A model generated the notes under the pieces. The model ran no database searches. It was not told where the DNA came from and saw only the letters and a list, made by a program, of their open reading frames with translations. Of a DNA stretch of 64,000 bases, positions 4,380 to 59,100 are shown piece by piece. Position numbers and translations under genes: made by a program. How positions within the stretch are numbered: position 1 is the stretch's first letter; each line of letters begins with the position of its first letter. This DNA comes from Cinnamomum chago (taxonomy: Eukaryota; Streptophyta; Magnoliopsida; Laurales; Lauraceae), in assembly GCA_038049695.1 (NCBI GenBank), contig CP142452.1:71615501-71679500 (forward strand). The letters run 5' to 3'.

Positions 4380-7300
4380 GTAATGCTTGCTTTCTCTTTC
4401 CAATTGCTAAATCATCTTTTTATTCTTTATCACTGCCATTTCATCACACACTTGGATGATTCTCTGGGGTTCTCTGCTTTAGTGCTTTTCTCCAGCGTTT
4501 CATAATTTGGGCTTCCACCCACTCTGTTGATTTCGACTTCTTGCTGGGTTTATGAAGAATATATTTGATTTGTATTTTTTTGGGCTGGTTTTGTATCTGA
4601 TATGAGTTTATCCGATCTTTTTTTTTTTAGAAATTTGTATCGAGTTCTGTTTTTTGGGATTTTCATTTGTTTCGTAGATTGCGTTGTTAGGGTTGGATAT
4701 CTGGGATTTGATTTTCCACTTTAAGATTAAAGAATCCCTCAAAACTGAATCTAATGTTGCCCTGAGAGTTACCCAGTTGAAGGGATTTTAATTGGGCATG
4801 GCTGGTATAGAATCCTATTGTCCCTTCCTGAGTTTGTTTGATTTTAGTTGTGAATTACTGGTTTGGCGATCTTCAAATGACTATATAGGAACTGGATCAT
4901 ACTTCTCCTATAAACTGTTTTGAACTTTCTATGGGGCCCCTCCTTGATGCGTGCCAGTAGTGGGGATTGGGAGCTCTTAATGTTCATTAGGGTATATATA
5001 TGATATAGGCATGATTCAAGCACCATAATTTCTTTTTGAAAAAAGTGACTACATTAAAAAAAGAGAAGGAGAAGGCTATACAGTATAGGAGAGGTATACT
5101 GCTAGAAAACAAAGCCCAGACAAAAAGCTACGGACCTATCGCACCCCTAAAGAAAACAACAAAAGGAAAAAGACAATATTATAAAGGATATTGTGACGAG
5201 AAGCACCCTCCTTGGCTAGGCGCTTAGCTTCTGTGTTGGCACTTCGATCAATATGGCAGAATGAGACTTGAATGCCCTTCGCACGATCAAAAATCTCCCC
5301 AATCACACCAGCCACCTTCCAAGGTGCCTTAGCAGATCCCAAGGCCCACTGGATTGCGCATAAAGAATCCCCCTTCATTAATCACATTGTGAAGGTTCAA
5401 CTGCTTTACTTCTATTAGGCCGGTCTCAATAGGCAGTAATTCTACTACATTTGCTGAGGTGAAACCTGCCGGCCCTGAGAAGAAAAGAATGGGCTGGCCC
5501 ACATCATTCTGGATAATACCTCCCACCCCTGCCACTCCCGGGTTGCCATGGGCACTACCATCAAAGTTCAGTTTCAGACTGCTTGTAGGCGGAGGGACCC
5601 ATCTGTGAATGGCATTAGGCTTTGCCGAAGAGGAGCATGGCACTTCTATCCAATTTCTTTGAATCACATCCACCGGGAAATCTCAAAAGGGGTCAAGGGG
5701 AGAGACCCAGGAAGCTACAAGATATTTAATCTTATCCCTAAGAAGGACCTCATTGATAGCTTTGTCTTGAAAACAACGGTTATTTCTCTCCTTCTAGATC
5801 ACCCATAACATTGCCATGAATGAAGATCTCTACATAATACGGCCTCTAGAAGAACCAACTCCCAAATTCCATGCATCGAAGAGAGGAGACAAATTGGAAG
5901 GAAGAACCCCACTCACATCAAACCAACTAAAAACAGAGTTCCAAAGGAACTCAGCAACGCTACTGTCCTCGTCAGCCAAGCACATGGGACAAGCATTTAC
6001 AGTACACAACTTCCGACGTCGGAGATTATCAATGGTTAAAGTACCTCCAAGTAATGCTATCCATGAAAAGGTGAGGACCCTTGGAGGAGCTTTGAACTTC
6101 CACAACTGGACAATATTGGAAGGACCTGAATCATTCCTACTGAAAGCAGTATAACAAGAGGCAACGGAAAAATTCCATCTGTAGAGCAAGACTAAATCCT
6201 TGAATCTCTACCATCCACTGGGATGTAGACCTCCTCAATTAGAGCCAAGAACAAGCAGAATTGATCCTTTGCCACTTGAGTGAGGTTCCTTCTAAAAGTA
6301 GGTCCCCATACAAATTTATCTCCTACTTTCTCCACATAATTGTTCACCATCCTTCACCAGAGCTCTTTTGTTCTTTGTGCAATGGAAGAGGTCTGGGAAC
6401 TGGGACGCCAAAGGAGGGTCCCTAATCCAAGTATCTAACCAGAAGAGGATGCTATCTCCCTTGCCCACATGCAGATGGGTGAACGTAGAGAAAAGCTCCT
6501 GGACAGACAAGATGCCTTTCCAAATTCCTGAATGATGACGAGAATCATTGCGCACCTCCCAGCCACCTCTGGCAACACTGTATTTAGAAGAAATCAATTC
6601 CTTTTAGAGCCCAACTGAGTCATCCCCGAGTCGCCATAACCATTTGGCATGAAGAGCTTGGTTCATAGTTTTAATGGATCTAATTCCCAAGCCTCCCCCT
6701 TTTTTAGATTTGCAAACAAGATTCCATCTCACCAAATGGAATTTTTTCTTCATTTCAGATCCTCGCCACAAAAAATCCCTCTGTAATTTTTCTATATGCT
6801 TTATAATCCCGATCGGGCACTTGTGCAAGGATAAGAAGTATATTGGTAAGTTGGAGAGGACTGATTTGATAAGGGTGATACTTCCTCCAATAGATGGATA
6901 ATTATCATTCCAAAGAGCGAGTCTCTTTTCTAGCCTTTCCATCACCGGAGTCCACAAATGATTGGGTGGAGCACCAATTCAGAGAGGCAACCCCAAATAG
7001 GTTGAAGGAAGCCCACCAGCCTTGCAACGCATAAGACCCACCAAGGCGAGCAAATGACCTTCAAGCACTCTTACACCAATCAATTCACTTTTGTAGAAGT
7101 TAATCTTGAGCCCTGAGATCGCTTCAAAACACAACAGAGTTGCCTTAACATTCTTAATTTCGTCCTCATCGGCATCACAAAAGAGAAGTTTGTCATCAGC
7201 AAACTGTAAATGGCTGATTGTAGGGGCATTAGTGCCCATCCTAAATCCATTGACACCAGCTGCTGCTTCAGTCATATGACTCAAAGCCTCGCCCACAATA

Positions 7301-10300
7301 ACAAACAAGAAAGGTGAAAGAGGGTCTCCCTGGCGAAGACCTCTAGATGCCTTAAAAATACCTTTGGGAGAACCGTTTACCAAAATGGAGTAATGAGCTG
7401 ATTGAACGCATTCCATAATCCACATCCTTCATCTCTGCCTAAAACCCATGGGACACATGAGATATAGAAGGAAGTCCCAATCGACCATGTAGTAAGCCTT
7501 CTCGAGGTCCAACTTACAAATCAAGCCTGACTTTTTCTCCAGGTTTTTAGAGTGAATGCACTCATTGGCGACGAGAACCCATCCAAAATCGGTCTCTTCT
7601 TGATGAAAGCTCCTTGATTTAGGGAGATCAGATTAGGCAACACCCTCTATAGACGAGTAGCCAACACCTTTGCAAGAATCTTATAAATAGATCCGATCAA
7701 ACTAATTGGGCGAAAGTCCTTGATACATCGGCTCCAGACTTCTTAGCGATAAGCATAATGAAAGTGGCTCCTAAGTGCCTAGAGAGTTTACCTTTAGCAT
7801 GAAATTCTCTCATAAAAGCTATCAAATCTTCTTTATTATCTCCCAGAACTGTTGGAAGAATGCCAATGGAAAACCATTGGGACCAGGAGCCCTATCATCC
7901 CCCAATTCAAAAGCTTCCGTTTTAATCTCTTCTTCCAAGAATTCACTTTCCAGCAAAGAAGCAACATCGAAGCCAAGCACATTGATATGCAAATGGTCCA
8001 AAGTGGGCCGATTCCAAGAATCTTTTGAATATAAAGCCTTGAAGAATTGGATAATGTGTTCGGATATACTACTTTTATCTTCAAGGCGTCTATCCCCATC
8101 CAACAATATGACGATTTTATTTGTCCTGTTTCTGAAAGAGGCAAAACTATGGAAGAACTTGGAATTCTTGTCCCCCTCCATAATCCATTTAACTCTAAAT
8201 CTCTATCTCCATTTAACCTCCTCGCCTATCACCTTTTTTTGAAAAGAATTTTGCAAATGGAGTCTCGTAAAAGAATTACCCAATTCCTCTTTATTGTCAA
8301 TCTCTAGAATTTCTTGCAGAAGACAGTCCATAGCGTGATCCGTGCTTCGATAATAATTAGCGGCCCAATCCTTGATAAACATCTTGAGTTTCTTTAGTTT
8401 AGTCACAAGTTTGTAACCTTCCCAATCAATCACCAAAGTCTCTTTCCACCAACCTTGTATTAATTGGGGAAATGAATTCTCCCCGAGCCACTTCAGGTCA
8501 AACCGGAATGGCGACGCCCCCCACCATTCTTTCCTAGAATCTAGGAGAATCGGGCAGTGGTCAGATGTTGGTTTAGGAAAAGCTTTCTGCAGCATACTTG
8601 GGTATATATCCAACCAGTCTCCAGATAGGAGGAATCTGTCCAACCTAGACTAAATTGGGTGCTCTTGGTGGTTCGACCATGTGTAATTTGCCCCATGTAG
8701 GTGCAAGTCCTGGAGAGCGTGCAAATTAATCCAATCGGAAATTTTTTCTTCATCTCAGCCAAGACATGACAGCCTCCCATTCTGTCTTCAGGATATCTGA
8801 TTATATTGAAATCTCCTCCTAGGCACCAAACCACTTATTTCTAATGGAGTCCAATTCCCTCCAAAAGCTTTCTCTACTGCCGCTACCAGAAGGCCCATAA
8901 ATAGAAGAAATGATCCACTCCTTATTTAACTCCACATCCCTCACAACAGCTGAAACAGAATAGAGCCCAATCCAATGATCTAACACCACCCATTTTCGAG
9001 AATCCCACAATAACATAATACCCTCCGAAGAGCCCACATCATTTAACCCCACCCAATAGAAGAGTCTAGACCCAGTAATTTGCCTCACTATATTATCATC
9101 CAAAGAACTAATTTTGGTTTGATGAGAGATGCCCTTGATTGCCTAATAACCTTCTTGACTATAGTCAATAGCCCGCCAGTTTGAGCTTCCCTGACCAAGA
9201 ACATTCCAAGAGAGAATCATTTACAGACTTTGCTGTCCACCTGTGAGCGCTGTTCAGTCTTAGCCTTGCTGCTTGCCCCCTCCTGCTTACTTCCACCTTT
9301 ATTTATCATAATTAATGGTGCACCGATGACCTTGCAATTCTCTGGATCCTTTCCTCTTAGAATTATCTAGAGAGAAAATTCTTTATTTAGTTTTTGACGA
9401 AAGTCGGCAAACTCAAACAAACTCTCCCAGCCTTTGTTGCACTTACTAACAAAAGCCCCACGACCTCCCTGCAAAGCTTCAACTTCTCCGGTAGCCACTT
9501 GGAAGAGGTAGAGTTGGGATGGGGCCCCTTAATATTCGTGGAAGATACTCTGCCCACGTTATCTTGAGATTCGAAACATCGTTCGGTGCTAGGGGTTGAC
9601 AGGGACAGTCTGTCCACACCGCTAAGGAGGGGGTTGTTCCTCTCACAACATGACTTTGAGGGGGAATTGAAAGTAGAATTTCCCTCTCTTCTTTTAGTAT
9701 TTGAAACCCACCCATCGTTGGTCGTTGTGTTTGACGAGTTTGGTGAATCGTCAATCATAGCCCTTAAAGGATTAGACTCTGGGGTTGATACTATTCTCAT
9801 AGGAGTTGTCGACTTGATCACCACTGACAGAGAGCTTTGCGTCTTGTCGGCAAGCTTTAGGGAACTAGTTTGTGTGGCTCTTGAAGTAGCCATGTCTCCG
9901 TAATCCATGGAGAAATCTGTGATAGGGAAGGGATCGATCTCCGACCCTCTAGAGGACGTCGATTGCAGAAAGGGCCACAATCTTAGACGAGCTGGAAGAA
10001 TCTCTTGCTCTTCTCCACTGTCGATTACAAGAGAGGGCCAGGATGCCCTAAAAGTTCTCTTCACAGACTGTCGAAGATGACATATTATGGGGGAGACAGT
10101 AGCTTTCGACTTTAAGTCGAGGTTTAAAAGGGTCTCTTGTGGACCTTCTTTATATAATAATTCCTAGGCCTCTACTGCCACTGGCTCGTCATGTTGAGGT
10201 TCATTAAAGTGGATGTGGATCCGGCCCATACTATCTAAATGAAGTGCGGCATCGTCAGTTTTGAAATTCAAATTTGGACGTCTGATGTCATTATCTTCAA

Positions 10301-13300
10301 GCTCCATCTCTGAGCCAGATTCAACACAATCACTGGATTTCTCCACAACGAAGTCATCATCCTCAAAACCTTCACCATCAGAGCTATGGATAGAACGAGC
10401 TATGCCTCCATCTCTCTTATCCCAGCCTTTATCAGATTTCCCTTTTTGTTGAGGGACTGTTAGATCTACCTCCACCTTCACCGGCACTTGGATATCATCC
10501 AACCACAGGCCTAGCTCCTTCGGGAGACCTTTCGTTTCATCTCACAACACCTTCACTTTGCCGAATAGAAGGTTCTCTTGCTAGGTTGTTCTGAGATCGA
10601 CCTCTAGAGCCCGGCCCACATAGTCACCAAGAAGCTTGAAAACACCTTCCCTCCACACATGTAAGGGGACGCCTATAAACTGCAACCAAACTTCTCCTGT
10701 TGGCCTCCCTATAACCTCCATATATCTACAACCCGGAAGGGGGAGTCCTCTTCATCTTTGAGGGATAGTAGGAACTCTTTTGCCTCGATCTCAGAGACAA
10801 ACCACAACCAGACCGCGCCAGGGTCTAATAGCCTAACCTTTTGAGGTTGCTTCCCCTGTTGAGACTCCAACCAGGTATGAACCCTCGACAAGCCATGCTC
10901 TGGGTGCTTCAGGAATCCAACCAGACTATTGGTGAGGGATCTTTTGCCTTCTTGAATCACCCATGGTGCCACTCTCACCGTAGGAGACTCTCCTCCCTAA
11001 AGAATTCACCCTTCTTGAGGTGAGGAACCAAGGGATGCTGTCAATCGTCTGAGAGGATTGAACCATGGGTTATCAAGAGAGGAGACAGATTTCCCAGGAT
11101 CTCCCATAATAGGCTTAGACGTTTGCGATTGACTAACTGGGAGGACTTTGCCTTCCTTCTTTGGTTTGCTAACTCCACGTTAATCCTCCCTCCCTAGGAT
11201 CTGCCATTGGCCAGCTCTATGGCTCGTTCTGCTTCTCTCATCATCTCAAATCTGACGAAGGCAAAACCTCTGCCTTTACCGCTTACTAATTCGTTTGGAA
11301 TGAAGGAGTCTAAGATTTTGCCTGCCTTGCAGACCATTGCTCTGAGCTTGGGAGAGGAGATGGAGGCTGGAGGGTTGGAAACAAATAGGGAGATGGTCTT
11401 CTCTCTCAGCTCTAAGATTTCTCTTGGAAGAGGTTTGAGGTTTGCAGCCATCTGAGATCTCTGCTGTTTTGGTGGAATGTTAGCTACTGAAACTCCTAAG
11501 ATCTTGCCATCTAAGGGTCCCAAAGTTTAACGTTTAGGAATTGCCTAGATGACTGTTAAACTTTAGGGCCATCAATTAAGTGGTCAGAATAATTGGATTC
11601 CTCCGATATTCTATGTACCTTAATCCACAGAAAGAGCTCATTCCCATCCATACCCCACAGTCGGCCTGCATGGCTGAAATTTCCTATTGGAACTTTTGGC
11701 AATTGGGTGGTGTCATGGGCACCACCTACTAAAATTTGGTATCAGTAGTCGTCCACTTTCCACTTTCCATCACTGCTTGGTCATTATGGTGCTACAAAAC
11801 TCAATTTTTTCTATATGTGTACCTTGTCAACCCCAGAAATCAAGATAGATATTGGTGTCATCATTTTTTTGCTAGGACTTTAAGTTGCATTCTTTGTACA
11901 AGAATCTGCTTATGCATACAATTGCATTATAACGGCTTCTTTGTGTGGAAGAACTTGTAGGTCTTCCAAATTTAGTCACAATTGTATTTTTGCTAATTTC
12001 TACTTCCCTTGTTTGGTAGATTGGGCACTCGCACGCATTTTTCTCATGACAATCGACCTCCTGAAGCTTTAAAGAGAACTCGGTCACCTCCTTTGGTTTA
12101 CGGGGGCAACCATTCTATTGTGTACCCTAATAAAGAAACTCAGGGGTAAGTTTTCAATGCAAAGCCTTGTTAGTTTTCTCTCTCTCTTTTTTTTTTTGGC
12201 TAGGACTTTAAGTTGCATGCTTTGTACTAGAATCTGCTTATGTATATTGTACACAATTTCATTATAATGGCTACTTCGCGTGGAAGAACTTGTAGGTCTT
12301 CCAAATTTAACCACAATTGTATTTTTGCTAATTTCTAGTTCCCATCTTTGGTAGATTGGGCACTCGCATGCATTTTCCTCCTGACAATAGACATCCGGAA
12401 GCTTTAAAGAGAACTCGGTCACCTCCTTTGGTTTACGGAGGCAACCATTCTATTGTGTACCCTCAAGAAGAAACTCAGGGGTAAGTTTTCAATGCGAAGC
12501 CTCGTTGGTTTTCTCATTTTTTTGCTAGGATTTTACGTTGCATGGTTTGTGCAAGAATCTGCTTATGCATACAATTGCATTATAATGGCTCCTTCGTGTG
12601 GAAGAACTTGTAGGTCTTCCAAATTTAATCACAATTGTATTTTTGCTAATTTCTAGTTCCCATCTTTGGTAGATTGGGCACTCGCACGCATTTTTCTCTT
12701 GACAGTCGACCTCCTGAAGCTTTAAGGAGAACTCAGTCACCTCCTTTGGTTTACGGGGGAAACCATTCTCTTGTGTACCCTCAAGAAGAAACTCAGGGGT
12801 AAGTTTTCAGTGCAAAGCCTTGTTGGTTTTCTCAATTTTTTGCTAGGACTTTAAGTTGCATGCTTTGTAAAAGAATTTGCGTATGCATACAATTGCATTA
12901 TAATGGCTCCTTCGCATGGAAGAACTTGTAGGTCTTCCAAATTTAGCCACAATTGTATTTTTGCTAATTTCTAGTTCCATTCTTTGGTAGATTGGGCACT
13001 CACACGCATTTTCCTCTCGACAATAGACCTCCTGAAGCTTTAAAGAGAACTCGGTCACCTCCTTTGGTTTACGGAGGCAACCATTCTATTGTTTACCCTC
13101 AAGAAGAAACTCAGGGGTAAGTTTTCAATGCAAAGCCTTGTTGGTTTTCTCAATTTTTTGCTAGGACTTTAAGTTGCATGGTTTGTGCAAGAATCTGCTT
13201 ATGCATACAATTGCATTATAATGGTTCCTTCGTGTGGAAGAACTTGTAGGTCTTCCAAATGTGATCATAATTGTATTTTTGCTAATTTCTAGTTCCCATC

Positions 13301-25300: not shown

Positions 25301-28300
25301 TCCCTTGATCGGACGGCGTGATTATCCCTACCCTTTCCCCAAGCCATCGTTCATCTCCCTGCATAACCCCCGAATCCCCTTCCATCAAGACCAGAAACCC
25401 CTCTGCCGAATCCCTCATCCCTACCATCACCATCGTCCCCATCTCCAATCCATCTACTCCTATAACCCAACTATAGACCATCCTCTTCCCACGTCCACTG
25501 ACCCACCACCTTAATCCAAAAATCCCAACCAGAACCCGTAAACCTCCACAAACCGAATCCTAGCCCCTTTCGTCCAAACCCTTTTTTTCTTCGGTAGCCC
25601 AAATCTCAACAACAAAAAGCAAAAGAACAGAAAGAAGAAGAAGAAGAAGCGAGGTAGAGAAGGACTCGTGTACCTGGCATTGGAGTACACACTGCCGTCG
25701 TCACCACGCCCTGCCGTCGTCACCCAGCCTTGAGCTCTTCACTCCCCACCGAGGGCGCTGCTGCCATCGCCTGCTCTTCGATCACTTGCTTGCCGTCGCC
25801 TCCCCAGTTTCCTTCTCTTCTTTGGAGAATAGCACCTGCTATTTTTTCTTTTCATGCAGCAGAGCCTCCCACCACCTCCTCTCGCCTTCCAGCAATAAAA
25901 AGGCAACCTCTTCCGTTTTATTCTTTTGTTTTCTCTTGCATAGAGAACGAGGCAGCAAGTGGGCCTTACTTGAGTTCAATTCAGGTCATTCACGGGTTAG
26001 GCCAAGTTCAAATCTGGATTGATTTGGGTTGACATCTAGTCCATCCGACCCTTCTTGAGGCCTAACAGATTCTGCTGACATCATCATTGCATCATAGAAT
26101 CTGATCAACAACAAATTTGACCGAGATCAACGGTTGAGATTTCTTCTGATGATACTGGACGCTCATCCACCGTCCTATTTTAGATCCGTTTTCGCCAGCG
26201 TGATCGAGATGAGCAGATCTACACATCAGGTCAGTCAGAAATTTTGAATTTTCTTTACATAAAAATGCCTCCCAAGAAGCATGTAGAAGTGGAGTCCTCC
26301 CATAATGATGATGATTTGAGGGGAACTGTTGGGCAACTATCCACCATGGTGGTTCAAATGCAAGAGACTCTTGCAAGGATTGAGACTCGATTAACTAATT
26401 TGGAAACTCATCGGCGTGAAGATAAACATCGAGATAACTGGGATGATGGAGGACAAAATCGGAATCAACGAGACCCACACGTAGTAAATGTTGATCGCAA
26501 TTTGGGTATTAAACTCGTGATTCCCGAATATGATGGAAAATTGAAGCCAGATGAATTCTTGGATTGATTAGTGTGCGTTGAAAATATTTTTGCCCATAAA
26601 CCAATGACGAATGGTCATAAGATTACACTGGCGGCAACTTGATTTCACAATTATGTTGCGATATGGTGGGCTGAGTTGCAAAAGAAGAGGATATACCAAC
26701 AAATTGATCTTGTTGACACGTGGGCCGAGATGAAAAATTTGTTGAAGCAAAAATTTCTGCCTGTCAATAACTCTAGAGATCTACGTTGACGTTTTCAATA
26801 TTTGAAACAAGAATCTAAGACAATTGTTGAGTATTTTGAGGAGTTTATGACTATGCAAGCCCGCTGTGGTCTGAATGAAGATGATGAAGCATTGACGGAT
26901 ACTTTAATGGGCTTGCACTTGACATTCAAGATATCCTCGCATTCAAGCATTTTGATAATGTTGATGAGATTATTCAGCATCCTATCAAAGCTGAGGGAAT
27001 TTCAAATCATCAAGCCCAAAAACTTAATGCAACTAAATGGGTTATGCAGAAGAATTCCTCAATTGCAGGTTCTAAACCGAGTGCGTCATCGGAGAAAGTT
27101 TTCACCAAGCCCAAAGGTCAAAATAGGCTCACATGCTTTAATTGTAAACCACAAGGGCATCGTGCATCAGAATGTCCAAAATGCATCCATCTCATTGAGA
27201 AGGAAGGTGATGTGAAAGATGTTCTAAATGATCCTAAAGAGAATGAAACAGAGGAAGTTGTGGATACTCTGCCCGAGAAGGGTCTTGAGTCTCTCATAGT
27301 CATCCAAGAAACTACATTGACTACTGCGAAGAAATGGTTGCGAGAGAATATTTTCCGTTCCAAAGGAACAGTCAATGGTATAGAATGCACAGTCGTCATT
27401 GATGGAGGCAGTTGTCAGAATATTATATCCCAAACTTTTGTGGATCGCTTACGGCTAAAAGTTCGGAAGCATCATCGTCCTTATTTTGCTAGATGGTTAA
27501 TGACGGGTGATGAAGTGCAAGTCCGATATGCCTGTCCAGTTACCTTTTCCATTGGTGCAGATTATACTGATATAGGTTGGTGTAATGTGATACCCATGGA
27601 TAGTTGTGATATCTTGTTGGGTCGTCCATGGATGTATGACAAGAATGACACTAATGGCATGCGCGACAACGCATACACATTTATGCATGGTGCAAAGCAA
27701 GTCACACTCCGTCCTCTGAAGCCGATACCACCAAAGAAAGGGTCAAGTTCTCGTCTCACGAAGGAAGCGCTTCACGTGCACACTATCTACAGAAGTAACA
27801 TCAAGAAAAATAGCCGAGTTTGAGGACGAACTCGTTTCCAACCTGGAGAGAATGATGTAGTAGCAATATCACGGCCTTGCAACAAGACTCGTGGGCCACA
27901 TGTGGGACCCATGAAATTCCCATGAAATTCTCTGAGTTTTAATTAGTATTAGTTTAAGTTTAGCAAGGTTGTAATTAGGGTTAGTTTCTAACTTAGGAAG
28001 GATTCTTATTTTGTTTCCTAATTTAATTAGGATTACTTTCCTAGTCCTTAAGACTCTTTTATTATAAATATGGCATTGTAAAGATTAATAATCTCAGTGA
28101 TTTTTGAGTTAATAAAATTTCCTTAAGTGGGTTTATTGTGGAGATTGTTTTCATCGTGATTGTTCCAAGTAGGAACCCTAATTGTGCCCTGACACTTGCA
28201 TCCTAACCCTAGGATTGCATCACCCGCCACTTTTTGGAAATCCTAATCCGAGATCCCCAAATTTCCCAAGCCCTAAGCCAATTTTTCCTAAATCCCAAAA

Positions 28301-42168: not shown

Positions 42169-42573
42169 TAGGGATGTAAACGGGTTGGTTCTAATCTAGG
42201 TCTTTACTGGACCTGGAACGGAACCGTTAATGAGAAAATGGAATTGGAACGGAACTGGTTTCTTGGTTTAAGAACCGGATCTAATGAGAAAATGGAATTG
42301 GAACTTGAACCGGTTTTGGGACGGATCCGCGTCTAAGTAAAGAATGATAGGGAAAAAAAAAAAAAAAAACCTAACTTTTTGGAGGGTTTCTAAAAAAATG
42401 AGGTAATATGTCAGATCCTTGGTTCCAGAACCAAACCCAAACCTGCTTAGATCACAATTCCGAAAAAGGACTCGGACCTGTTTACTTATTGCCGTTGGGA
42501 CCTAAATAAGGAGATTTTTAACGCGTCAGAACCTCCGGGTAATCAAAGAATTTGAGACCCATTTAGATCCTTA
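42169..42573. mobile_element. Nonautonomous hAT-type element, perfect 8-bp target duplication
   Basis: The termini are TAGGGATGTAAACGGGT (left) and the complement of ACCCATTTAGATCCTTA (right). GTCCCAAG flanks it at 42161-42168 and 42574-42581. The 405-bp interior has repeated ggaacggaaccg/aaccggttt motifs and no ORF. It belongs to the same family as 55005-55384. Confidence 0.88.
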
Positions 42574-51810: not shown

Positions 51811-54283
51811 TCAAAATTGAAGAAACAAAGATGTGATCCATCAGTGACCAACAAATAATCTTCCTTTTTATTAAAATCGAACGGCGGAGGATGAAGAATG
51901 AATAATGGGAATCCTTCCTTGTAAATCAAATCATAGGATAGTGATCTTGTTCTCGTTGAATCTCCATCTTATATCATTCTCTTACTACCTCTTTTCTTAT
52001 ATCATTCTCTTACTACCTGTTTAATAATATGCTTGTTGGAACCATTTTACCATGAGTTCCTACAAACAAAGGGGCTCTAAATATGAATTAGTTCATGACC
52101 CCTTTCATAAAACTCTGCGTATAAAAACCTAATTCAGCCTTCTTTTGCTACAGTTTCAATTCAGTTATCCATTCCATATTCTACAAACTTATACTTAAAA
52201 ATCATTTTGCAACTAGTCTAGAGGCCCACCCAAAAATGTTTTTTTGCAATCTGAGCAGCTCTGATCGAAAAAAAAAAACATGCATTCCACTTGTAGATGA
52301 ATTTATGCATGATTACCTCCATCAAATCCCTTATACAAGAAATCTTGAAAGTAAATTGTTGCTTACAACTTTTTGTGATCATACATGTGATTTTTCTCTT
52401 GAAATTCTTATGATAGAATGATTGGAGGTGAGTGTTGTTTAATCATTATAGACAAAAGAGGATACATCTCTATCACTTAAAGGCAAGGGTTATGATAGCA
52501 GAGAAATATTTTGAAATGAGGGGCAGTATCTTGAGGTTGTTGTTGTCCATGTAAATAAAGAGGGGGGCAAGACCTGGTTTAACTCACTCAAAAAAGTGAA
52601 ATAAAGTTCTTTGATTCCATGAAATTTGAATAAAGGAAAGAGACAAGGAACTATCACACGTGCCACCGTTAAAAGTAGGGGCAGCTAGAAAAATCTGATG
52701 TGGTGACTCAGATGTGACTAGCCTATATGGGTTAAATGTGGGTTATAGATACCTGGCCGACAGGCATGCTGATAAAACAGGCTTGATCCATCTAATAAAC
52801 GGGTCAGATACAAGTTGGGCCTCAAGTGGGTCCCTCAAGTCCATGATTGGGTATCAGTGTAGCACTTTTGATACTATGGTCATCCCATGATTAGGTATTT
52901 GGCCAATTTTATAATTATTGAACCTACACTCACATTTGGATTGAGTCTAAAAAATAAAAATAAAAAATTTACCGCTCACCATTGGATTGAGTTTCAAAAA
53001 AGATTTATGAGTGAGACGCCGTTAAACTTTTAGGCTATTAATGAAAATCATGGTGTGGGATAATCCGGTGAGACTGATTTTTTTGCTCTCTTTTGTCTAA
53101 AAGGAGACCTTTCTACTCCTACTATTGATACATGTGCATCTAAGCGGACTCCCCCAAGCTGGAATGCATATAATTGATATCGGCTCATATGAGAACATTC
53201 TCTCGGAAAGAGACACTAACTAACAGGGAAAAATATGTTCACCTTACAAAACAGACTAGGGTCCTGTCAACAGAAATACTCTTTTCTAAAAACACCATAT
53301 GAAAAGGAGCATGATCCTGAAATTTTCTTCCTTTCGGAAGTGATCATGTGTTTCTCTTTTTCATTCTAATCCAAAGGTGTGGTACTCACCAACTCATGTC
53401 TATGAAATTGCAGGGAAAGAATCTTTATAATATGTTATATCTGGACCATTCATCTGCCCAGTTCTTGGATGGATTGATCATATCTCTGAAAATCATATAA
53501 AATCCGAATGATCTTAACCTTTGAAAGATTAATTGAACATTGATTGACTGTTCTACTAATCATCAAAATTCCCCCTCAAGAAATCGACCATTCAAATGTT
53601 TATAATCAGAGAACACTAGGCTGTGGCCAATCTGAGGTAGGTCACACACCCAATCATGTGCCATTTGATAATAATGAGACAATCAACTTGTGGAGAAGAA
53701 GCCATGAAAAGACATTGTAAACTTTTCCAGCGACAGAATAGTAATACTGATACGTTCAGTACTAACCATTTTCAAAGATAAGAAAGGTATTTTGGTTGTA
53801 CCCAAAAGGAGGTCCCCAGCAGTGTTTTGTATGTTTCTCTCCTGCCCACCTCACAACCTTGGAACTCTCTTTCACGAAGGAATGTCGATCTGAAAGAAAG
53901 AGGAGAGAGAGAGAGAGAGGAAAGGGAAATGTGGGGATGAAAGCAAATATGGGGTGTGTCACTCATTGAAATGATGCAAGCAAAGCAAGAACACAAGAGC
54001 CTTTTTTCACATGGTAGGAAGACCTTGCAATGGATAAATATAGTTTTAGTTGATAGGGAAATATAGTGGGGGAGGGGGAAAAAGCATAACTAAAGTGACC
54101 ACAGCAAATCACCAAGATTCTCTCAAGTTTTGGTTGTACTTGCACTGGCTTCCTACCTCAACATACACTTGCATCTGCAAAAGAGAATGGTAATGGGAGA
54201 GAAAGGGGATTGGTTTTATTTAAAAGAAATGATGGCCTCCTATTCTAACCATATGGTTTCGAGAGATATATAGAGCACTTCAC
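51811..54283. other. Intergenic, no gene seen
   Basis: The stretch is AT-rich with short frames lacking domain features. A (GA)n run lies at about 53898-53921. A 28-bp cattctcttactacct-type duplication occurs at about 51975-52020. Nothing else is supported. Confidence 0.55.
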
Positions 54284-54851
54284 TGTTGGAATTAGTACTT
54301 TTAATATTCCAGCATGAAAATTAAGAAACTCCCCAAGAAAATTCAAAAGTCATTTTGGAAAGCCTAAAGGTCAAATGTGATCTAGAAAAGCTAAATCACG
54401 GGACTTTTTTGTTAGAGATTTTTGTATATACCCCCCTAAATTTTGTAAAGAGACCCCTAAGATTTTAGTATTTACAAATAGGTCACTGCATTTTCATTTT
54501 AATACCTTCGGTTTACCTAGAATTAATAGTCTTCCAACTATGCTAGGTTTTTAGAGCGAAATGACACTTTTGTCCATCTCTTTTTATCCTTATATGCAAA
54601 ATTTCAATTGCTTGGACTCAATCTTATTTCTAAAGCATGTAACATTAACAATTGCACTTAGTGGGAGAGAATAACCCTACAAAACTCATTTTTATTAATA
54701 CAGGGCTCATTTCATTAAATCCAAATTGATTATGATGACAATCAACACATGTACTTATAACCGGTTATGATTTATGCAATCCATACATGACCCACCATTG
54801 GATTGATGAAAGTCTCAAAGTACATGATTATGCTACATGTATAGGGAGTTG

Positions 54852-54981
54852 TGAAAGAAATATTGGGGGAACGGGCAAATGTAAAAAAAATATTAATTTT
54901 TAGAATTTGCGAGGTGGTGATGGGGGAGTGTTTGGCTCTTGTAAAAGAAATATTGGGGGAAGGAAAAATGTTAAAAAAATA
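54852..54981. repeat. 91-bp spaced direct repeat in LTR 1 insertion
   Basis: The sequence gt(g/a)aaagaaatattggggga followed by an A-rich stretch occurs at about 54852 and again at about 54943. It lies in the part of LTR 1 that has no counterpart in LTR 2. Confidence 0.7.
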
Positions 54982-55004
54982 TGATTGAAAGGGCTCTGTA
55001 TGAC

Positions 55005-55384
55005 TAGAGTTGTAAACGGGTATGTTCTGGTCCAGGTCCATGGTGGACCCGGAACTGGAACCGTTAAGGAGAAGGTGGAACCGAATCCGGACCCGGAACC
55101 GTTTCGGAACCGGTTTCTTGGCTCCGGAACCGGAACTGGAACCATATATGGGACGGGTCTGGATCCAGGTCCGGGTTTAGATAGAGAATGATATTATAAA
55201 AAAAAATGATTTTTAGGAGAGATTTTCGAAAATTGAGGTAATATATCGGGTCCAGGGTCCGAACCAAGTGGAACCAAACCCGGACCCATTTACTTATCGG
55301 GGCCTAAATAAGGACCCAGACTCGGTTTTCAACAGGTCGAAACTTTCGAGTAATCAGAGAATTGGGTACCCATTTACATCCCTA
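55005..55384. mobile_element. hAT-type element nested in LTR 1
   Basis: The termini are TAGAGTTGTAAACGGGTA and the complement of GTACCCATTTACATCCCTA. Flanks are TGTATGAC (54997-55004) and TGTACGAC (55385-55392), 7 of 8 matching. Removing it brings gggctctgtatgac next to ccctttgaccatacaac, which restores similarity to the uninterrupted LTR 2. It is related to 42169-42573. Confidence 0.82.
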
Positions 55385-55732
55385 TGTACGACCCTTTGAC
55401 CATACAACTCCCCACACACACACACCCTCCACACCTTTTCAATCATGTTTTGTACAAATTGGTATCACAACTAGGTCGACAAATTTCGAAGCATCGATCT
55501 TGGATTATTTTATGTTGCTAGAAAATATATTTTTGAAGGCTGCATATTGTTTTTGAAAAAAAAAGTTTTTTTTAAGTGGTTTGGGTCTTGTGTTTGAAGG
55601 AAAAGAGAGAATTTGATATTTGAAAACATGGGGGGGGGGGGGGGGATGATTTATTTTTCAAAAAAAAAAAAAAAAGAGTGTGTAAAGTGATGAGAAAAGA
55701 GAATAAAATATGTGATTTTGTTATGAAGACTC

Positions 55733-55943
55733 AAGTGAACAAGTTTCTTCTTTTTATTGGTTTAGGTATTTCAAGAGAACAAGTTTATTCTCTTGATAAG
55801 CACTACCATGGTTGGTGATTAAGAAAACAAGTTTCTTCTCTTTATTTGTTTAGGTGTCTCAATTCTTAAGAGAATAAGTTTATTCTCTTGATATAAATAG
55901 GCACCATCATGGTTTGTGATTAAGAGAACAAGTTTATTCTCTT
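55733..55943 (+). repeat. Array of five hairpin-forming leader repeats
   Basis: The 22-bp motif AAGAGAACAAGTTTATTCTC + TT occurs at 55773-55794, 55821-55842 (variant), 55868-55889 and 55922-55943. A weaker copy lies at about 55733-55753. Each is an inverted repeat (AAGAGAA / TTCTCTT) around an 8-nt loop, spaced 47-54 bp. Between them, ggtttaggt(a/g)t(t/c)tc and gcac(t/c)a(c/t)catggtt alternate, so the higher unit is about 95 bp. The array ends 24 bp before the ORF start. Confidence 0.85.
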
Positions 55944-55967
55944 AACTAAATTTCTTTGTTAAAAAAA

Positions 55968-56336
55968 ATGGTACAAAGAATGGTGATAGTTGAAATCCCT
56001 TTGAAAACTATGTTACAAGAAGCTACAACAAAGCTTGGATGTCTCCCTCCTAAGTATGTATCTCTCAAAAGTGGACTTGACCATGAGCCAAAGTTCATTA
56101 GGACAGATCATTTTATACTTGATGAATATTCTTACTCCATTACTGGGCATCAAAGGTCATTAAAGAAGAAGGTTGAAGAAAGTGCAACATTGCATGCTTT
56201 GAAAGCTCTTCAAGATTTGGATGTAGTCAAAGTGATCAATGGTAACGAGTGTGACGATTATAACCAAGTTCAGAATCTAAAAGAACATGCAGTGTTTTTA
56301 CAAGAAGAGATGAAGAAGTTGAAAGCCACAACATAG
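55968..56336 (+). CDS. Small double-stranded-RNA-binding-domain protein inside an LTR element
   Basis: The 122-residue intronless ORF starts MVQRMVIVEIPLKTMLQEAT. Residues about 10-75 match the double-stranded RNA-binding motif: LQEATTKLGCLPPKYVSLKS, GLDHEPKFIRT, a beta region ILDEYSYSITGHQRS, and the C-terminal helix LKKKVEESATLHALKALQ, which corresponds to the KKxAExxAAxxAL signature. Usual alanines are partly replaced (KKKVEESATLHAL). A hydrophilic tail with a coiled-coil-like VQNLKEHAVFLQEEMKKLKA follows. The ATG at 55968 was chosen over the out-of-context TTG at 55956. The ORF lies between a primer-binding site and a polypurine tract, in the element's sense orientation, where gag-pol would normally be. 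It is open with no breaks. The origin was probably a host dsRNA-binding gene, but which one is unknown. Confidence 0.75.
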   Translation: MVQRMVIVEIPLKTMLQEATTKLGCLPPKYVSLKSGLDHEPKFIRTDHFILDEYSYSITGHQRSLKKKVEESATLHALKALQDLDVVKVINGNECDDYNQVQNLKEHAVFLQEEMKKLKATT

Positions 56337-56442
56337 GCTATGAAGAATTTTTTATGAAGCTCGCATTAAGGGTTATGACAAAAAGAATGAAGAATTGAAA
56401 TTCCGGGAAGGATCGTCGACCCCGATGTGAATTAAATATTAA

Positions 56443-56457
56443 AAGTAAGGGGGAGTT
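56443..56457 (+). other. Polypurine tract before LTR 2
   Basis: AAAAGTAAGGGGGAG lies directly before the start of LTR 2, as expected for the plus-strand primer of an LTR retrotransposon. Confidence 0.65.
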
Positions 56458-56870
56458 CTATTGGAATTATTATTTTTAATATTTTAGTATGAAAATCAAG
56501 AGAGTCTCCTAGGGAATTCAAAAGTCATTTTGGAAAGTTTAAAGGTCAAAGGTTATCTAGAAAAGCTAAACTTCATGGGACTTTATTGTTATCTTGAAAT
56601 ATGTAAAGTTATGTGTTTTGGAAGTGTCCTTAGGCCGGTTATATAAGTTTGCGCTTCAGTTATTTTCTAAGGTGTGAAGAAAGTACGTCTTTAAAGATAT
56701 TCAAGTGCTTGGTGCAGTCTTCTTGTTATTGTGTGATGAAAATATATGTAGTTTGTTAAGTGTCTTGCAAATTTGATTTAGAGAAGGGGCTCCGTTCGGC
56801 CTGTTGGCCGTCCAACCCCACACTTCACATCCTTATATTTCTACAAAGTTGTATAAGAGCATTTATTCAA

Positions 56871-59100
56871 AGTGGTATTGAGATCATGTTTTCTAAAATT
56901 TACTTGATCCAACCTTTTCATATTACATGCCCATGTGTTGACCAAACTCCAGCGTGGAGAGACACAGAGTCTAGTAATTCAGATGAGTTTGACCTAGTTT
57001 TTGGCAGACATTTAAAAATTAGATTTCAAAATGAATGAATAAATCGGTCGCGCACCCAACCAATACAAACAAACAATTGCTACAACATGATCTTACCATT
57101 TTTCAAATGATGAACTCCTAAAAGCCTGAAATAGCCTGGAAGTTTTAACCTCATATTCTCAACCACTCCTTATTTGGTCTTATTTGGATCTTGTCCTGTG
57201 CAACATAACATCTCCACAATTGCAACATCATATTTTTTTTTTCTGGTGAGAAGACAAGAACATGAGACTAAAAAGAGAGTACAGTTGGTGTGCAAGTAAA
57301 ATAAAAGAATCCTACTTGACATACGATGGTGCAAAGTTTATTCATGGAGGGGCCACTATATAAAAATACAAAAATCTTGAAGGGGCCATATTTAAAAATT
57401 ACATAAAATTTCTAAAACTACAAAGGGTTTTTTGAAATTTGTGGTGGTGGTGGTGGTGGTGGAGGGGGATAGGGATGGCAACCTCCCCTGGTTCCGCTAG
57501 TGATTAGATTTGAACTCATCACCTTTCATTTCTAGAAAGTTTAAGTTCTATTGTTTATTATTATAGAAAAAAATAAGATTTTTACATTACAATTCACTAT
57601 ATATTAAAAAAAAAAACTCATTTACAATTTACTACTTCTATCTATATTCTCTTCAGCTACCGCTTCTAAGATGTTGAATAGAAAAACCAAGCAAAACCTA
57701 TGACTTGTTTTATATTCAAAGAGTTATTGTAGCTTGGTGGAGTTGGCTTTAGGTTTATGTGCTATAGTTTTATTTTTTTTATATATTTTCTTGTAGTTAT
57801 TTTCTGCTATTTATTATCCTTACTTCCTTTTGCATATTCCAATGGTGTGTTTTACAAGGTATCAATTTAGTGAATCTTTTGTGAACATCACACAAACTTG
57901 TTATTAGTACTTAAAGGCACATGCCAATAATGATAGAATCTATTTTGAATTCTATCACAAGTTTTTGTTTTGTTTTACTTCTATATTTGGAATTCTAGCA
58001 TTACTGAGAGTTGGAAATTTTGTTTTTGTTTTTTTGTACATGTTATTATGTATAAATGATAAATTTTTATTTTAGTTTCAGCAAATATCAACACCTTAAA
58101 TTTGAACCAGTTTCTTATTTAACATAAGAATTTTCATTGTTATATTACTTTCCATTTTCTAATTTTTGTACATTTAAGCCAGTAAGATTTTAATTATGAT
58201 TAATTTATAAAACTAATTATATTTTTAAAAATGGTGACTCCTATCATTACTACTATGACTAATCTTTTTTATTACTTATTTTTTGATGTATATATATAGC
58301 CTATGCTTTAAGCACCAGTGGTTAAGATAGTTTGGATGAAAAGTAAAGTGAAAATGAGAACCTCTTTTCACAAAGGAACTTCTTTTCTCCTATTTCAATA
58401 TTTTAGAGAAGAAAATTAAGTTTCCTCAACTATCTTTTTCAAGTTAATCCCTTGTTAGCTTAATGATGAGACACCTCTTTCCATCATAGAGGAGAATCTA
58501 TATGAGAGAAGACTAGAGATCTCCCCATCTCACCTCATTTTTACCACTAGCGAGGGAGTTCTCTATTTGTCATTTTCTCCTCATCAAATTGGCCCTAAGA
58601 TGACACCACAACTACCCAAATTTTAGAAGTAGAGCATAGCTGGAATGGGGTATCTAGAATTGCCTATTGTAAAAATTACTTCAGATGTCTTTCTCACATG
58701 AATTGCGTGGGCCTTCTTGTTTCAACCTTACTGATGTGCAGTGGGGGAGGATCCCACATTTGTCTATTCCATACCTAAATGCAATATTATATTGGATTTT
58801 TGTCTTTCAATTCCTAGACATATCTAAGGATGCACAAGGGGCAAGTGCTCATTTGTCTTTCTGTTTGCTGGATGTATACTGGGAGTGATGGCAGCCAGAA
58901 AAATAGGTTTTCTTTCTTCTTTGAGAAATGATTTAAAAATATTCAATTATAGCTGTAAGGGCCACAATTCCAAACCCAAACCCAGCTCCAGAGCCATGTG
59001 ATTAGATGACCCATGGGCTGATTAACACACTGAAAATTGAGAACGGCTCCTTACTCGAGTAGTAAGGAGTGACAATTATCACCTGACCGTCTATGGTATA
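56871..59100. other. Intergenic, AT-rich, no gene seen
   Basis: The first ~150 bp may be internal sequence of a second LTR element. A SINE-like minus-strand B-box (GTTCAAATC, about 57505-57520) lies next to a (GGT)n run at about 57440-57462. The rest is AT-rich with no recognisable coding content. Confidence 0.5.

Follow-up and report, generated by a model that had tools for sequence, protein, structure and literature searches.

The LTR element at positions 54284 to about 56895 of the window (the whole 64,000-nucleotide stretch analysed, C2:71615501-71679500 of a 14-contig genome of 1.06 Gb) is an old and damaged member of a genome-wide repeat family whose sole recognisable gene encodes a double-stranded RNA-binding domain (dsRBD). 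The copies have a common layout: an LTR, a tRNA-Met-type primer-binding site (PBS), a hairpin-rich leader, one open reading frame (ORF), a polypurine tract (PPT) and a second LTR. The internal region measures about 0.8-1.1 kb. An initial annotation of this one copy had proposed a non-autonomous LTR element with a dsRBD as its only gene, and the proposal is borne out by copies with the same LTRs that are repeated through the genome. The window copy has the following parts.

54284-54414, plus strand: first part of the 5′ LTR, which begins TGTTGGAATTA and is 84% identical to 56458-56591
54415-55384, no strand assigned: foreign DNA inside the 5′ LTR, which includes a repeat (54631-54990) and a hAT-like MITE (55005-55384)
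55385-55456, plus strand: 5′ LTR tail (U5), which ends in CA and aligns to the 3′ LTR tail
55460-55471, plus strand: PBS-like site TGGTATCACAAC, with 10/12 letters of TGGTATCAGAGC
55733-55947, plus strand: leader array of palindromes (AAGAGAACAAGTTTATTCTCTT-like), each about 25 bp long, directly upstream of the ORF; fold z -4.3
55968-56336, plus strand: ORF of 122 codons with a single dsRBD (residues about 12-82), shorter than the ORFs of relatives
56442-56455, plus strand: polypurine tract AAAGTAAGGGGGAG, kept in relatives
56459 to about 56895 (end approximate), plus strand: 3′ LTR, with at least 44 genomic matches, some of which are pieces of one LTR
56849-56860 and 56873-56885: two decayed PBS-like units in the 3′ LTR tail, the second recognised by eye against L019 and L021

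Both ends of the proposed LTRs can be matched within the window. The starts align at 84% identity (54283-54414 versus 56458-56591; blastn, E ~1e-36), and the ends (55382-55466 versus 56790-56879) align with a score that none of 500 dinucleotide shuffles reached, a match that plain blastn missed. The 5′ LTR tail also matches the LTR tails of genomic copies, best in L012 (80%, E 8.5e-14). The PBS-like and PPT-like sites hold up as well: relatives carry TGGTATCAGAGC-like sites at the place where the window has TGGTATCACAAC, a 10/12 match of a quality (at least 10/12) found at five plus-strand positions of the window, and AAAGTAAGGGGGAG is conserved among relatives. The 3′ boundary, previously set at 56870, has to be moved, as the 3′ LTR extends to about 56895. 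Absent from the earlier description, too, were the nested insertions that split the 5′ LTR. The repeat at 54631-54990 is also present in L039, and the hAT-like MITE has the terminal inverted repeats TAGAGTTGTAAACGGG.../...CCCATTTACATCCCTA and is flanked by an 8-bp duplication (TGTATGAC/TGTACGAC); relatives of this MITE lie in L029, L034 and L020 and at 42169-42573 of the window. No clear target-site duplication was found in the flanks of the window copy that we examined. Its LTR pair is 86% identical over only 129 nt, the lowest value among the 9 pairs examined, and because of this low identity the window copy is probably older than the other paired copies.

Two genome searches with the LTR gave at least 44 and at least 56 matches, in which a single LTR is sometimes represented by several pieces. 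Of the candidates, 40 out of 143 and 40 out of 163 were scored, so that copy counts are lower bounds. All 31 LTR loci that were fetched have starts resembling that of the window 5′ LTR (71-84%). The ORF is present at 16 of them (11/20 plus 5/11, the former count leaving out a 50-bp ORF piece in L017); at the remaining 15 the pattern of matches resembles that of solo or broken LTRs. A genome search with the protein gave at least 49 matches, of which 5 are other dsRBDs and 44 group into 31 places, the window included; flanks were fetched for 19 of these 31 places, and the counts of LTR linkage refer to the fetched places only. Two LTRs surround the leader, ORF and PPT in L009, L010, L011, L012, L013, L016, L029, L035 and L070, and perfect 5-bp target-site duplications flank three of the nine LTR pairs (AGATG in L010, CTACT in L012 and GGCAC in L070), that of L012 standing twice in tandem on the 3′ side. 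LTR pairs in the relatives are 92-97% identical (the alignments for L013 and L016 extend beyond the LTR), and therefore some copies are fairly young. At the level of the family, then, paired TG...CA LTRs, duplications, PBS and PPT place these elements among the LTR retrotransposons. The initial annotation had left room for repeats that are not LTRs elsewhere and for an ORF confined to this locus. Other copies, too, have these repeats as LTRs, and a unique locus is ruled out by the LTR matches, by the ORF at 16/31 LTR loci and by its occurrence at no fewer than 31 places in the genome.

Gag-pol was not recognised in the copies examined, where the internal region consists of leader, ORF and PPT, nor in a visual check of the first 160 residues of the longest ORFs (at least 110 aa, up to four per locus) at 10 further LTR loci. 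An autonomous partner was not found among the scored LTR candidates (40/143 and 40/163). Three database proteins, from public contigs, represent further copies read in other frames or with frame shifts: P0001 covers the ORF, whereas P0002 and P0003 take in the ORF region and continue across the PPT into the LTR start, and all three differ from the fetched copies (best identity 50-69%). A longer C-terminus in another frame of the window, considered on the basis of P0001 and P0002, was dropped because the genomic copies show it in the ORF's own frame. Scans of viral and prokaryote contigs gave no relative. Two unusual arrangements were seen among the copies. In L016 (C4:82168500-82176500), a tandem LTR-internal-LTR-internal-LTR structure has its middle LTR in common, as after unequal recombination. 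At C1:34150588-34304413 there are eleven LTR matches, ten of them spaced about 12.9 kb apart, which suggests a long tandem array with one LTR per unit.

The domain encoded by these elements is, by sequence comparison, a genuine dsRBD (PF00035). The window ORF matches DRB2 (E 4e-5), RNase III (0.002), DRB3 (0.0045) and DRB4 (0.014) in phmmer, in agreement with the dsRBD first read from it. It has no match to Pfam dsrm, and an NCBIfam search did not match the dsRBD either. The absence of a profile match, which the initial annotation had held to be decisive against the domain, is thus literally true of the window copy in Pfam, but is overturned by the phmmer matches and by five of five relatives tested, in which dsrm exceeds the gathering cut-off (E 1.4e-6 to 1.8e-9); one relative's ORF matches DRB4 at E 1.6e-8. 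A chance resemblance to the motif is ruled out by the same DRB and dsrm matches. The recognisable parts of the motif are KTVLQEA, GPDHEPKF and KKKAEES, with GPDHxPKF and KKKAEES as conserved stretches. The reading of an intact sense ORF survives in part: 122 codons are open, but the frame ends early, as relatives run about 30 codons longer and the family protein, about 153 residues long, carries a single dsRBD at its N-terminus. Two AlphaFold models of the element protein are of low confidence (pLDDT 37), and seven alignment rows bring the value to no more than 37.5. At 37.5, the DSSP order of alpha-beta-beta-beta-alpha followed by a long helix serves only as a check of consistency, and with low confidence the C-terminal part is predicted to form one long helix. 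We infer, with moderate confidence, that the family protein binds double-stranded RNA.

As to the origin of the domain, the genome holds 42 Pfam dsrm matches, every one of them above the cut-off, and eight of these are family copies by position. When 5 element dsRBDs were placed in a tree with 29 of the 34 non-element matches, they fell into a single clade (100/95; recovered in 99% of 200 bootstrap trees) on a stem of 1.08 changes per column. This clade is separate from the genome's DRB-type dsRBDs and does not group with the DRB family, although its deep placement is poorly supported. Among the best seven matches for each element row, non-element dsRBDs score 22-38 bits versus 86-128 bits for another element copy. 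Given a single clade, a long stem and no close non-element dsRBD, the capture would be old, or the donor would lie outside the compared set. Recent capture of a host dsRBD gene, as originally suggested, finds no support in an element clade that stands on a long stem outside the compared groups, and recent capture from a DRB-type gene of the same genome in particular is unsupported. A separate locus came to light in this comparison: L071 (C9:66655600-66658900) carries a DRB-type dsRBD exon in a large inverted duplication (834 bp at 97%; 594 bp at 98.7%) and is possibly a hairpin locus, and dsRBDs near-identical to this exon occur at C1, C2 and C3.

Several copies of the ORF carry early stops. 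The window frame stops at codon 123, and its sister L027 has the same early stop. Among 17 aligned copies, five from several clades (L009, L013, L025, L035 and L038) have a stop in place of codon 82, where the dsRBD ends, and a stop at codon 54 is common to L014, L015 and L032. The codon-82 stop is TAG in four copies and most other copies have CAG; this TAG may have arisen by C-to-T change at a methylatable site, and the stop could represent either a mutation hot spot or a shortened form of the protein. Because stops are shared among copies, those with a shortened protein probably still multiplied, and because such copies are linked to LTRs, the protein probably can act in trans or is dispensable to individual copies. 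Frames of 147 and 152 codons remain open in two copies that differ at about 14% of sites.

The signs of selection on the ORF are weak and inconsistent. Median pairwise omega is 0.48 (13 copies), with values of 0.42-1.21 at dS under 0.15 and of 0.29-0.63 at dS of 0.3 or more. Against a null in which the substitution spectrum of each pair is preserved (pairs are not independent), 8 of 13 deeper pairs have fewer amino-acid changes than expected at p < 0.05, for example L016b-L013 (0/400), L016b-L010 (0.003) and, with W denoting the window, W-L010 (0.018) and W-L013 (0.020). The other five do not reach significance (W-L011, 0.090; W-L012, 0.125; W-L016b, 0.168; L016b-L011, 0.090; L020-L016b, 0.102), and none of six shallow pairs lies below the null. 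For the dsRBD codons alone, 2/5 pairs reach p < 0.05 (0/3 of those involving the window), and 2/5 do so for the C-terminal part. After correction for spectrum (136 pairs, 17 copies), omega is 0.87 and 1.06 in the shallow bins and 0.74, 0.75, 0.78 and 0.87 in the deeper ones. Shared and singleton variants do not differ significantly in N/S (2.33 versus 2.71, p 0.32; 0.17 without C>T/G>A). P0002 shows no third-position excess relative to the window, with 17 differences at second and 14 at third positions of the ORF codons; the corresponding counts for P0001 are 5 and 8. Strong purifying selection is unsupported by the corrected omega, the shared-versus-singleton test and the codon-position counts. 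We read these data as neutral decay of inserted copies on top of a weak constraint in the source lineage, which is no proof of function. The earlier suggestion that an open frame signals selection is therefore weak: 8/13 deeper pairs suggest constraint, but the shared-versus-singleton test is non-significant and copies with shared stops probably still multiplied.

The leader upstream of the ORF was compared with its shuffles in 14 copies. It folds better, at z below -2, in nine of them, the window included; z is -1.4 to -1.5 in L014 and L015 and near 0 in L011, L027 and L038. A further peculiarity lies in the LTR tails: 11 of 26 LTRs contain at least two PBS-like sites, usually at a spacing of 24-30 nt, versus a background of 0.056 per 400 nt. 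Tandem tail units that each contain a PBS (TGGTATCAGAGC), many ending CATCA-like, are seen in L009, L010, L011, L013, L016, L017, L018 and L026, and in 5′ LTRs one PBS-like unit is the real PBS. As judged from literature listings, we found no earlier description of PBS arrays in LTR tails.

The reading that we favor, and consider moderately probable, is that of a multi-copy family of short non-autonomous LTR elements that is mobilised in trans and whose dsRBD protein binds structured RNA, perhaps that of its own leader. To judge from the anatomy of the copies, element RNA would be packaged, reverse-transcribed and integrated by the proteins of an autonomous partner. The element's own RNA is proposed as the target because a structured palindromic leader precedes the ORF; this transcript might be the protein's main ligand, and binding could shield it from Dicer-type processing or aid its packaging. 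A more elaborate version, which strikes us as rather improbable as a whole, would have the protein coat the hairpin-rich transcript, hide it from Dicer and RdDM and deliver it to the partner's particles, with the PBS-rich LTR tails helping to win the partner's reverse transcriptase; the lineage would then be a hitchhiker marked by an RNA-guarding protein and not by gag-pol. It is also conceivable, if doubtful, that the protein blocks silencing more broadly, by sequestering dsRNA or small-RNA duplexes or by competing for Dicer with the DRB proteins of the host, and that element and partner alike would profit from this. Among solved structures, the dsRBD is indeed nearest in sequence to plant DRB2/3/4 and RNase III, and action in trans would suit copies that were mobilised despite early stops; plant viral silencing suppressors are described as binding dsRNA in the available text of PMC11728184. 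The protein has a single dsRBD, however, and the selection signal is weak.

That same weakness lends some weight to the idea, which we hold only tentatively, that the ORF is carried as a functionless passenger, captured long ago and still recognisable because active source copies were few and young. An omega near 1 in shallow pairs and of only about 0.75 in most deeper bins, the non-significant shared-versus-singleton test, the shared stops and the six of six shallow pairs not below the null all agree with such drift. They have to be set against an ORF recognisable at 31 or more places, the 147- and 152-codon frames still open in copies about 14% apart, and the 8/13 deeper pairs below the null. 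Finally, the ORF could be an accessory gene of a full-length gag-pol element, with the short copies as its internal deletion derivatives. Some plant LTR elements do have accessory ORFs, located between pol and the 3′ LTR, as described in the available text of PMC7264820, but the paired copies share their leader-ORF order and an internal region of about 0.8-1.1 kb, and no gag-pol was seen by eye at the 10 further LTR loci (40/143 and 40/163 candidates scored), which makes this origin improbable.

In the open literature, with subscription papers and preprints lying outside that scope, we found no earlier description of an LTR family with a dsRBD as its sole gene. The closest structural analogs are TRIM and other small non-autonomous LTR elements such as Cassandra, which in the descriptions available to us are likewise short, with two LTRs, PBS, PPT, target-site duplications, tandem forms with shared LTRs and no gag-pol. 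TRIMs are short, non-coding elements, whereas the dsRBD family retains a protein gene: its ORF occurs at 31 places or more and adjoins an LTR at 16/31 LTR loci, so that the absence of coding capacity that defines TRIMs does not apply. To plant DRB proteins (DRB2/3/4) the element protein is similar in dsRBD sequence and RNA-contact motifs. DRB proteins have two dsRBDs; the element protein, in contrast, has one and a different C-terminus. The DRB4 chain matched the element ORF twice.

Plant LTR retrotransposons are well known to carry accessory ORFs, according to the available text of PMC7264820. In Tekay elements of sunflower, maize and sorghum an extra ORF likewise lies within an LTR element, and the maize and sorghum proteins have predicted-structure similarity to a DRBM protein, and a role in silencing was suggested for these Tekay elements. 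There the ORF stands beside gag-pol and the sunflower one is without a known-domain match, as given in the accessible part of PMC11728184, whereas the family described here has a Pfam dsrm gene alone. An orchid Gypsy element that gained an AlkB-type RNA demethylase is comparable as an LTR element with an RNA-acting domain, but is 25 kb long with Gag-Pol and differs in domain and activity (PMC9289625, in its available text). Maize Bs1, an example of host-gene transduction, also has host-type coding sequence within an LTR element (PMC7264820, same text); unlike in Bs1, the dsRBD family is without a recognisable recent donor, and its gene defines the whole family. Such a family touches on two open questions, namely how retrotransposons handle plant RNA silencing and how elements without gag-pol persist. 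With a single dsRBD gene, it makes binding of element RNA, change in small RNAs and help in packaging testable, and it would give a sequence-level case for a role that fold similarity alone had suggested for the accessory proteins of Tekay.

Other repeats are present elsewhere in the window, whose gene and repeat content appears to be that of a flowering plant. By eye, the stretches at 5830-10541 (minus strand) and 26184-27823 (plus strand) resemble a plant LINE with reverse transcriptase and Gypsy gag/protease fragments.
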